A DNA stretch of 64,000 nt, taken from assembly GCF_017301335.1 (NCBI RefSeq), contig NZ_CP071247.1, positions 2,914,001 to 2,978,000 of the forward strand, read 5' to 3'. The notes below the pieces were generated by a model. It made no database searches. It was not told the origin of the DNA and saw only the letters and a program-made list of their open reading frames with translations. This DNA is from Marinobacter salinisoli. GTDB taxonomy: Bacteria > Pseudomonadota > Gammaproteobacteria > Pseudomonadales > Oleiphilaceae. Both the position numbers and the translations under genes were made by a program. Shown piece by piece: positions 38,352-47,099 of this stretch (its first letter is position 1; the number at the start of each line of letters is the position of its first letter).

Positions 38352-38466
38352 ATAACGCCGTGCTCAGCGGCGGCTTACTTTGTGTGCTTTTTGCACGAAA
38401 ATAGGAGCGCAGCGACCGTGCAAAAAGTGCACAAAGTAAGACGGCAGCTGCAGCACTTTGTTAGCC
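38352..38466 (-). repeat. attC site
   Basis: Begins TATAACGCC at 38352 and ends TTTGTTAGCC at 38466, with arms GTGCTCAGC/GCTGCAGCAC that pair apart from one extra base, and an inner hairpin TACTTTGTG.../CACAAAGTA. About 115 bp, the longest in the array. Confidence 0.85.
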
Positions 38467-39576: not shown

Positions 39577-39663
39577 CATTAACGCTAAGCTAAGCGGCGG
39601 CCTGACAAGGCCGTCCGGTGGAGGCCCAATAGGGCCGCAACAAACTTAAGCGACTTGTTATGT
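39577..39663 (-). repeat. attC site
   Basis: From CATTAACGCTAAGC to GACTTGTTATGT, with GGCGGCCTGACAAGGCCGTC as inner hairpin. Similar to the neighbouring 38982 and 39983 sites. Confidence 0.88.
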
Positions 39664-41574: not shown

Positions 41575-41582
41575 GCCTAACG
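41575..41582 (-). repeat. attC fragment, left of the IS
   Basis: GCCTAACG, the R' end of the attC interrupted by the IS110-family element. The rest of the site resumes at about 42957. Confidence 0.7.
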
Positions 41583-41588
41583 AATGAT

Positions 41589-41602
41589 ATGGACTCCCCC
41601 TG
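41589..41602 (+). repeat. Left inverted repeat of the IS
   Basis: ATGGACTCCCCCTG, the reverse complement of 42940-42953. An 11-nt inverted copy, CAGGGGGAGTC, also occurs at 41656-41666 just before the transposase start. Confidence 0.9.
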
Positions 41603-41669
41603 CTCCTACGGCATCAATGTGCCAGATTGGAGGTGTCATCAATCTCCGGTCAAAACAGGGGGAGTCATC

Positions 41670-42695
41670 GTGAATGTTACAACCATCGGTATTGACCTGG
41701 CTAAGAATGTGTTCAGTATTCATGGCGTCGATTCGCACGGCAAGGTCGTGGTTCGCAAACGACTGAATCGTTCGAAACTCTTGCCACTGATTGCCCAGCT
41801 GCCGCCTTGCCTGATCGGTATGGAGGCCTGCTCCGGCGCCCACTACTGGGCTCGGGAGTTCTCCAAGCTCGGTCACGATGCCCGGATCATCGCACCTCGC
41901 TTTGTCGCCCCTTACCGCAAGAGTTCCAAGAACGACGACAACGATGCCGAAGCCATCTGTGAAGCGGTCAGTCGTCCCTCCATGCGCTTCGTGCCGGTCA
42001 AAACCGCCGAGCAACAGGCCGTGCTGTGTTTGCATCGGATTCGCAGTGGTCTCACCAAGGAGCGCACCGCGCAGATCAATCAGATTCGCGGGTTGCTCGC
42101 CGAGTTTGGACTGGTGATGCCCAAGGGGCGTTACTCTGCCCGACACTATCTACCGGAGATCCTGGAGGATGGTGAGAATGGCTTGCCCATGTTAGCCCGA
42201 CGGTTACTGCACAACATTCACCAACGGATCCGTCAGCTGGATGAAGAGATCCTGGCCTACGATCGCGAGATTGAAGCAATGGCCCGGCGTGATGAGCAGG
42301 CCAAACGCTTAATGACGGTGCCAGGTATTGGGCCTCAGACCGCCACGGCCATCCTCGCCAGCGCACCCGATCCCAGGCAATTCAAAAGCGGTCGTCACTT
42401 CGCCGCGTGGCTGGGACTAGTCCCGAGACAATACTCGACCGGCGGCAAAGTCCGACTGGGGCGTATCACCAAACGCGGGGACAAATATCTACGGATGCTG
42501 CTGATCCACGGCACCCGAGCGGTCATTGCCAAACTGGGTGAGAAAGAGGATCAGCTCAGTCGATGGGCCCGGGACCTTGTCGAGCGACGGGGCTATAAAC
42601 GTGCGGCGGTCGCCCTGGCGGCCAAGAACGCCCGGATCATCTGGGCCATGATGGCTCATCAAACCGAGTTCAAAGCCCAACAACTGGAGGCTTAA
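41670..42695 (+). CDS. IS110-family transposase (DEDD recombinase)
   Basis: 341 aa, intact. The N-terminal RuvC-like DEDD domain has Asp in IGIDLAKNVFSIHG, Glu in IGMEACSG and the paired Asp in KNDDNDAEAI. The C-terminal Tnp20 domain has MTVPGIGPQTA and the serine region YSTGGKVRLGRITKRG. I chose GTG at 41670 (MNVTTIGIDLAK). Earlier in-frame codons run through the inverted repeat and are unlikely to be translated. Activity seems possible, since no frameshift or stop is present. Confidence 0.93.
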   Translation: MNVTTIGIDLAKNVFSIHGVDSHGKVVVRKRLNRSKLLPLIAQLPPCLIGMEACSGAHYWAREFSKLGHDARIIAPRFVAPYRKSSKNDDNDAEAICEAVSRPSMRFVPVKTAEQQAVLCLHRIRSGLTKERTAQINQIRGLLAEFGLVMPKGRYSARHYLPEILEDGENGLPMLARRLLHNIHQRIRQLDEEILAYDREIEAMARRDEQAKRLMTVPGIGPQTATAILASAPDPRQFKSGRHFAAWLGLVPRQYSTGGKVRLGRITKRGDKYLRMLLIHGTRAVIAKLGEKEDQLSRWARDLVERRGYKRAAVALAAKNARIIWAMMAHQTEFKAQQLEA

Positions 42696-42939
42696 CCGAG
42701 TACCAACGACAGGCATAACACGCCTGCCAGCCGAGTCTAGCGACGGCAAACGATGACGAAATGGTCAGACCGAGAGCAGGAGAACCTGTTGTGCTTGGTG
42801 GCTCTTTGAAGCCGACTAACGAATGAGGTCCTTGCTCACACGCATCATCATCCTGGCCCGAGCCAATGTGCTCACACAGAGGCCGAATGTAGAGCTGCAG
42901 TCTTAAACCGTTTCAACATTAAATGGCGTTGCTTGACCG
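42696..42939 (+). ncRNA. Candidate bridge/seek RNA region of the IS
   Basis: Non-coding right end, where IS1111-group elements carry their guide RNA. Short stem-loops occur: CAGGC/GCCTG (42710-42726) and CAGG/CCTG (42777-42788). CTAACGAATGA (42816-42826) is identical to the left junction of the insertion (41577-41587). AGCCGAG (42729-42735) is identical to the right flank (42956-42962). Transcript ends are not known. Confidence 0.55.
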
Positions 42940-42953
42940 CAGGGGGAGTCCAT
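42940..42953 (+). repeat. Right inverted repeat of the IS
   Basis: CAGGGGGAGTCCAT, perfect partner of 41589-41602. Confidence 0.9.
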
Positions 42954-42956
42954 GTA

Positions 42957-43050
42957 GCCGAGCACAGCGGCGACCTTGGAGTGGCACCGAAGGAGCCACG
43001 TAAAGGGCGTCCGGCGGCCACCGGCCGCGTACTGATGCGAATTGTTAGAG
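42957..43050 (-). repeat. attC site, main part (interrupted by the IS)
   Basis: Continues GCCGAGCACAGCGGCGACC... to GCGAATTGTTAGAG. With GCCTAACG at 41575 it would restore a normal attC of about 105 bp. Inner arms GGCGTCCGGCGGCCACCGGCC resemble other sites in the array. Confidence 0.82.
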
Positions 43051-46007: not shown

Positions 46008-46101
46008 CCTGCCTATAGGTTTATAAAACAGCAGCTTATCCCACTAATCGCAGTGTTTCCACGTAATCGTTTGACATCTGTTATTTGCGCCCCCAATAAT
46101 A

Positions 46102-46117
46102 CTGTACAAATATACAT
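46102..46117 (+). promoter_or_regulatory. LexA-box-like site upstream of intI
   Basis: CTGT-ACAAATAT-ACAT, one base off the CTGT-N8-ACAG consensus, 20 nt before the intI start. LexA control of integron integrases is well established. Confidence 0.75.
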
Positions 46118-46136
46118 ATTAAGGCAAGGAGCCATA

Positions 46137-47099
46137 ATGAAGCAGGGAAACCAGCCGCGCCTGCGCGATCAGCTTCGGGCAGTCATTCGCGTGAATCACT
46201 ACAGCATTCGCACCGAGAAAACCTACTGGTATTGGATTCGCTACTTCATTCGCTTTCATAAAATGAAGCACCCGCGTGATCTGGGCGCCCGCGAGGTGAA
46301 TGAGTTTCTAACCTGGCTTGCAGTGCACCGCAACGTGTCAGCCGCCACACAGAACCAGGCGCTGAATTCGCTGGTATTTTTATACACAAAAGTCTTGGAT
46401 AAGCCTCTGGGGGATATCGGCCAGGTAGCCCGAGCCAAAAAGCCGCCAAAATTACCGGTCGTCTTTACCCATGATGAAGCCATGATGATCATCAATCGGT
46501 TGGGTGAACCGAATAAATTGATCGTCTCGCTGCTTTACGGCTCCGGATTGCGTATCACCGAAGCATGCAGGCTTAGGATAAAAGATCTGGATTTCCGCCA
46601 ACAGGTGATTACGGTTCGGGATGGCAAAGGCGCCAAGGACAGAACCACGTTGATGCCCCCTTCTTTGATTGAAACTCTACAAGACCATATCCAAAACATT
46701 CGTGAAAGATGGCAACAGCAAAGCGAGGAATTTCTACACCCTGTAAGCCTCCCCTTTGCTCTGGCCAGAAAATATCCCAATGCAGGGCGATCACTTGAAT
46801 GGCAGTGGCTATTTTCATCCCCGAACCTTAGCTCTGATAATCTCGGAAATGTTGCCAGGCACCATCGGCATATCACGGGGGTTCAAAGGGCCGTTCGGCA
46901 GGCAGCGAAAGAAGCAGGCATCCACAAAAGGGCTGGCTGCCACACCTTTCGCCATACCTTTGCGACTGAGCTATTGAAAAGAGGCAACGACATTCGAACG
47001 GTTCAGGATTTATTGGGTCACGCAGACCTTCGAACCACTCAGATTTACACCCACGTTCTCGGACAAGGCTTTGCAGGCGTCAAAAGCCCACTCGGGTAG
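46137..47099 (+). CDS. intI: Integron integrase (tyrosine recombinase)
   Basis: 320 aa. Catalytic residues: Arg in GSGLRITEACRLR, His-x-x-Arg in HTFRHTFAT, His in LLGHADLRTT and Tyr in QIYTHV. The IntI-specific insert is present (PVSLPFALARKYPNAGRSLEWQW, ending near RHHRH), which separates it from XerC/D and phage integrases. It catalyses attC x attI cassette insertion. ATG at 46137 (MKQGNQPRLRDQL) has AAGGAG upstream; an in-frame TTG 28 codons earlier overlaps the LexA site and is rejected. It appears intact, so the platform may be active. Confidence 0.95.
   Translation: MKQGNQPRLRDQLRAVIRVNHYSIRTEKTYWYWIRYFIRFHKMKHPRDLGAREVNEFLTWLAVHRNVSAATQNQALNSLVFLYTKVLDKPLGDIGQVARAKKPPKLPVVFTHDEAMMIINRLGEPNKLIVSLLYGSGLRITEACRLRIKDLDFRQQVITVRDGKGAKDRTTLMPPSLIETLQDHIQNIRERWQQQSEEFLHPVSLPFALARKYPNAGRSLEWQWLFSSPNLSSDNLGNVARHHRHITGVQRAVRQAAKEAGIHKRAGCHTFRHTFATELLKRGNDIRTVQDLLGHADLRTTQIYTHVLGQGFAGVKSPLG

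Follow-up and report, generated by a model that had tools for sequence, protein, structure and literature searches.

The integron of Marinobacter salinisoli carries an insertion sequence in one of its attC sites, which raises the question of what directs such an element to this kind of target. The locus was analyzed in a window of 64,000 nucleotides (contig NZ_CP071247.1, positions 2,914,001 to 2,978,000, forward strand). According to the original prediction, an RNA from the right end of the element programs insertion at attC; covariation among relatives strongly supports this idea and the proposed placement of the left-flank guide, but the right flank is matched by a different stretch from the one proposed. 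Based on sequence comparisons, we found that the non-coding region of the element very probably encodes an RNA with four guides, two for the target and two for the element's own ends. We place the probability of this reading, and of the four-guide model as a whole, at roughly 0.88.

The IS1111-type insertion sequence occupies positions 41582-42956 on the plus strand (1,375 bp). Its ends were set by a 15-bp subterminal inverted repeat with a 7-base extension on the left and a 3-base extension on the right, and are common to relatives with other flanks. From left to right on the plus strand, these features are the left-end extension GAATGAT (41582-41588), the left repeat ATGGACTCCCCCTGC (41589-41603), the right repeat (42939-42953), and the right-end extension GTA (42954-42956); a shared G at the junction may be assigned equally to either side of the element boundary. 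The transposase gene (41670-42695, plus strand, GTG start) encodes 341 aa, within the family range of 330-350 aa, with the DEDD_Tnp_IS110 and Transposase_20 domains (PF01548 and PF02371) of the IS110/IS1111 kind, and matches the NCBIfam model "IS110 family RNA-guided transposase." The IS1111 motif GL-P----S(t)G is present in its translation as GLVPRQYSTG. Two other IS1111 traits were found, namely, subterminal inverted repeats inside short terminal extensions and a longer non-coding region 3′ of the transposase gene (42696-42938), with approximately 80 bases 5′ of the gene. An Rfam search of the element, with E-values up to 1 included, matched no family, a search of the non-coding region against plasmids gave one partial match, and among viral contigs no DNA fitted the patterns searched for.

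Several further observations concern the element itself. The NCBIfam TIGR-Tas endonuclease model weakly matches the C-terminal half of the transposase (gene positions 41670-42692), with 27.2 bits against a cut-off of 100. Just 5′ of the GTG codon, an 11-base inverted copy of the left subterminal repeat (41656-41666) lies over the ribosome-binding region, which it could mask in transcripts from outside. A similar inverted match of at least 8 bases was found in 20 of 60 elements but in 1.4% of shuffles, an excess that may be due in part to the purine-rich ribosome-binding site. In the host genome, the sole other match to the element DNA is a decayed left-end fragment (G000:C1:3630519; 80% identity over 202 bases).

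The integron integrase gene (46053-47099, plus strand, ORF coordinates; TIGR02249, 408.9 bits against a cut-off of 265) and the minus-strand cassettes place the element in an integron array. This array has nine unoccupied attC-like sites, each with TAACG and an arm on the plus strand. A stem and the motif were found at 38353, 40507, 41152, 43409, 43819, 44227, 44662, and 45293, and the motif only at 39580. The sites were judged by TAACG, the arm, and their position among the cassettes because a looser attC scan also gave many places outside the array; strict patterns gave one unrelated place. The left target half, CTAAC (41577-41581, plus strand), belongs to the attC core, whose TAACG is repeated in the nine unoccupied sites, and the right target half, GCCGAGCACAG (42957-42967, plus strand), is the attC arm. 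When the two flanks are joined, the element-free junction reads TAAC followed by GCCGAGCACAGCGG and resembles the neighboring attC-like sites. The window copy and most Marinobacter copies are inserted in the same orientation at one end of attC, with the junction between TAAC and G beside an attC-like arm; the right flanks of L060 and L078 are unlike attC arms.

The predicted guide RNA extends from closing stem to closing stem over approximately 42767-42903 of the plus strand, and the four candidate guides lie on that strand. The T guide, TTGTGCTTGGT (42789-42799), is complementary to the right target half with a score of 9.5 out of 11. This occupied attC is the best match, with the nine unoccupied sites scoring 5.0-8.5 and a TAACG outside the array (22935, minus strand) reaching 8.0. 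The B guide, CTAACG (42816-42821), is identical to the left target half plus the shared G, and the identity extends to 42826 into the left end. The T′ guide, ATCATCATC (42844-42852; register 42844 or 42847), which would read the left-end extension, is complementary to ATGAT of the left end and is the weakest of the four. The B′ guide, ATGTAG (42887-42892), is identical to the right end. The original prediction had noted two string identities, one with each flank, and all of their coordinates are correct. The 11-mer CTAACGAATGA at 42816-42826, which repeats the left junction (41577-41587), is above chance, with 1 in 1,000 dinucleotide-preserving shuffles of the non-coding region reaching 11 bases; a 7-mer assigned to the right flank is not. 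The right-flank guide at 42789-42799 and both guides for the element's own ends were absent from that prediction.

The guides were tested in fixed position windows after end normalization, in a discovery set of 26 elements and a held-out set of 34 further elements. From a discovery sample of 58 elements, L147 and L113 were dropped for an atypical repeat, 27 representatives were picked by hand, and L039 was lost at normalization. For the held-out sample, 69 genes were reduced to 49 (seven were too short, 10 lacked the repeat, and three were repeats or lay near a contig end), then to 36 with a typical repeat, and finally to 34 after removal of one duplicate and one atypical element. After the discovery set had been seen, the position windows were made 2 bases wider, and the T′ query was cut from 6 to 5 bases. 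Among the 34 held-out elements, which include relatives of the discovery elements and of one another, the mean own and permuted matches were 6.44 and 5.05 of 8 for T, 5.50 and 4.10 of 6 for B, 4.68 and 4.05 of 5 for T′, and 5.75 and 4.88 of 6 for B′. For every guide, the own matching was reached by none of 20,000 permutations, both in these elements and in the 26 discovery elements. The 27 representatives gave the same outcome for T, B, and B′, and for T′ with a 5-base query; with a 6-base query, some permutations were not beaten for T′ (p = 0.001). Relatedness was partly removed by taking one element per distinct query (58 for T, 49 for B, 15 for T′, and 11 for B′), which gave a median p of approximately 0.001, the floor of this test.

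Among all 60 elements, the thresholds were passed by 43 for T, 52 for B, 42 for T′, and 48 for B′, compared with 15, 16, 31, and 23% of mismatched pairs, respectively; only 27 elements passed all four. Elements at unrelated sites have guides that match those sites. In relatives on Vibrio plasmids, the T guides fit their own arms, for example, TAATGCGG beside CCGCGTTA or CCGCATTA (L219 and L223). With 5 bases and n = 52, the extension of B tracks the left end at p = 0.0001. A handshake role as in the IS621 bridge RNA, in which a guide pairs with the partner DNA once exchange has taken place, is left unclaimed because the same extension tested against the right flank as a control also gave significant values (p = 0.00005 for 1-3 bases and 0.02 for 5).

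A hand-drawn structure of six helices was evaluated on 26 attC-group sequences, in which 93.3% of the cells are paired and 16 of 25 pairs have changes on both sides. These values were matched by 0 of 500 shuffles, and slid versions of the structure pair in 24-42%; the count of further pair types alone is unremarkable (77 of 500 shuffles). RNAalifold recovered four of the six helices (P2, P3, P5, and P6) with a different closing stem. Hairpin P4 (42800-42813, plus strand), located between T and B, has 82.7% of cells paired and both-side changes in three of four pairs. In the six-helix model, T and B lie on opposite sides of an internal loop around P4, and T′ and B′ flank the P5/P6 stem. The two small stem-loops noted originally do exist, as parts of this larger, covariation-supported fold rather than as structures standing alone. 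Single-sequence folding of the RNA region was no stronger than that of shuffles, and the fold is visible only from the alignment. The guide sequences, their covariation with flanks and element ends, and this fold are what the sequence comparison itself shows.

Based on these patterns, the four-guide RNA would serve the DEDD recombinase of the element. Within the target loop, B would read the attC core (CTAAC and the shared G) by pairing with its bottom strand, and T would pair with the top strand of the arm to the right of this core. Within the donor loop, the partner of T′ would be the top strand at the left end, and that of B′ the bottom strand at the right end. The RNA may in this way unite the attC site with a circular intermediate in which the two ends are joined, and exchange at the G they share would give insertion in one orientation. 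Transcription, processing, circle formation, and strand order are modeled by analogy with published relatives. The need for a donor loop may be questioned because an 82-nt RNA was enough for transposition of ISEc11 (Siddiquee et al., 2024; PMC11187229). It is conceivable that only the target guides act, as in a seekRNA in the narrow sense, with the protein reading the ends through the inverted repeats and the T′ and B′ matches reflecting shared ancestry or another constraint. The short ISEc11 RNA fits this explanation, as does the fact that T′ is the weakest signal and that T′ and B′ offer few distinct queries. However, T′ and B′ track the ends in the discovery, held-out, and one-element-per-query tests, and donor guides have been demonstrated for IS621 and predicted for IS1111 (PMC11208160; PMC11208158). 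We consider action of the target guides alone unlikely and retain the four-guide model.

Close relatives offer a finer view of the target guides. We compared 20 Marinobacter-type copies, a set drawn up without partial or internally deleted copies (L097-L102, L110-L112, and those at contig ends), and found 11 distinct T guides. Among these copies, T tracks the right flank, and the other three guides are almost invariant. The mean own match was 7.65 of 11, compared with 6.58 for permuted pairs, when a one-base slip was allowed (0 of 20,000 permutations), and 7.05 compared with 6.35 without slip (p = 0.0009). The fit to the flank was unbeaten by the guide of any other copy in 11 of the 20 copies, and the window copy has the top score (9.5). 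The mean pairwise difference is 0.315 for T, 0.073 for the rest of the RNA, 0 for B and T′, and 0.019 for B′. Since T is variable and the other guides are nearly invariant, T appears to be free or adaptive and the others held. With third codon positions at 0.369, T does not evolve faster than neutral.

Could these matches be accidental, or copies of the flank, with the protein picking attC by reading its hairpin? Because the flanks are for the most part attC sites that resemble one another, a degree of matching would be expected, and the match is poor (6.0 or less of 11) in five of the 20 copies (L106, L042, L015, L018, and L078), four of which are fitted better by the guides of other copies. 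However, own flanks are still favored under permutation among attC copies, and elements at unrelated sites have guides for those sites. Moreover, L060 and L078, despite their non-attC-like right flanks, have T guides that are not bettered by those of any of the 20 copies (the junction of L060 is in common with L011-L014, and that of L078 with L020). An accidental or copied origin is therefore highly improbable. As for the stretches named originally, that at 42816 hardly changes among the relatives because its target half, TAAC, is almost the same from one of these insertions to the next, and the variable part that tracks the flank is the T guide (42789-42799). The 7-mer AGCCGAG (42729-42735), originally assigned as the right-flank guide, does recur at 42956-42962, but on sequence grounds it can be dismissed with near certainty, as a right-flank match of 7 bases arises in 437 of 1,000 shuffles, the stretch lies outside the modeled fold, and it is nearly constant in the alignment of relatives regardless of the right flank.

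Two other observations were made on the Marinobacter copies. One copy (L097; G147, C12 near 162532) is an internally deleted mini-element of approximately 150 bp at an attC-like site, with both ends and almost no transposase gene or guide RNA. In addition, the same left flank, ending in CACCATAGC, is found in L005, L011-L014, and L060, whereas the right flank is attC-like only in L005. This difference may reflect either recombination between copies or a chimeric assembly of L005, which comes from a metagenome-assembled genome.

One pair of copies bears on how targets may change. L105 and L106 of genome G162 have 15 unambiguous differences over 1.38 kb, and 14 of these are within 42749-42829 (window numbering). 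A run of 26 bases in L106, which covers the T guide and the hairpin (42788-42813), is identical to that of L010 from another genome, in which the surrounding bases differ. The flank arm of L106, GCTGAAATAAG, scores 8.5 of 11 with the guide of L105 and L108 but 6.0 with its own, and L108 lies beside the same arm. The simplest reading of these sequences is that L106 exchanged its target loop in place after insertion; this swap is a single case, and ambiguous bases in the G162 assembly urge caution. A search for further swaps among 181 stretches (pairs less than 6% different) found a 14-difference block in the target loop only in pairs of the same G162 copies. We tentatively propose, at slightly less than even odds, that resident copies acquire a new target when only their target-binding loop is exchanged, with the flank then recording the guide used at insertion. 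If so, a B guide fixed on the integron core combined with an exchangeable T guide would let one lineage track different attC arms and sometimes leave attC. The Marinobacter copies form a natural set of re-targeted elements that could reveal how much mismatch is tolerated. In the context of integrons, these patterns suggest how an element may find attC by the common core and yet prefer certain arms. More generally, the comparison of 60 elements provides a sequence-only test to distinguish the target-reading bases of an IS1111 RNA from those that read the ends of the element itself.

RNA-guided targeting of attC by IS1111 elements and bridge RNAs with donor guides are already published, and the window element adds one member. 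The seekRNAs of ISKpn4 and ISPst6 target attC and the RNA co-purified with the transposase, while the predicted RNA of ISPa25 has the same matches (Siddiquee et al., 2024; PMC11187229). The bridge RNA of IS621 has target and donor guides, with predictions for IS1111 (Durrant et al., 2024, PMC11208160; Hiraizumi et al., 2024, PMC11208158), and many IS1111 RNAs have donor-binding nucleotides in a multiloop (Durrant et al., 2024). A literature search for more specific prior reports, with few subscription papers and no bioRxiv preprints in its scope, found none among the matches listed.

Compared by description only, the window element is like ISKpn4, ISPst6, and ISPa25 in its IS1111 type, its position at one end of attC, and an RNA located 3′ of the transposase gene. 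As in the IS1111 seekRNAs (PMC11187229), the top-strand match (T, 42789) lies 5′ of the bottom-strand match (B, 42816). Unlike in the accessible account of those three elements, the T guide varies among close copies and donor guides are proposed. The window RNA resembles the IS621 bridge RNA in having a target loop and a donor loop, both of which contain guides for the top and the bottom strand, as suggested here by the covariation of four guides. It differs in its location in the right rather than the left end, in the reversed order of the guides, and in a shared G instead of a CT core. The window RNA would work like a bridge RNA but is not a member of the IS110 type. The putative exchange in L106 recalls the natural re-direction between ISEc11 and ISXne4, in which the target and the part of the RNA that matches it changed in concert (PMC11187229); the transposases of those two elements are 72% identical, whereas L105 and L106 differ almost only in the target loop. 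Relative to the available text of PMC11187229, PMC11208160, and PMC11208158, the additions made here are the systematic covariation of donor guides and the apparent swap of a target loop.
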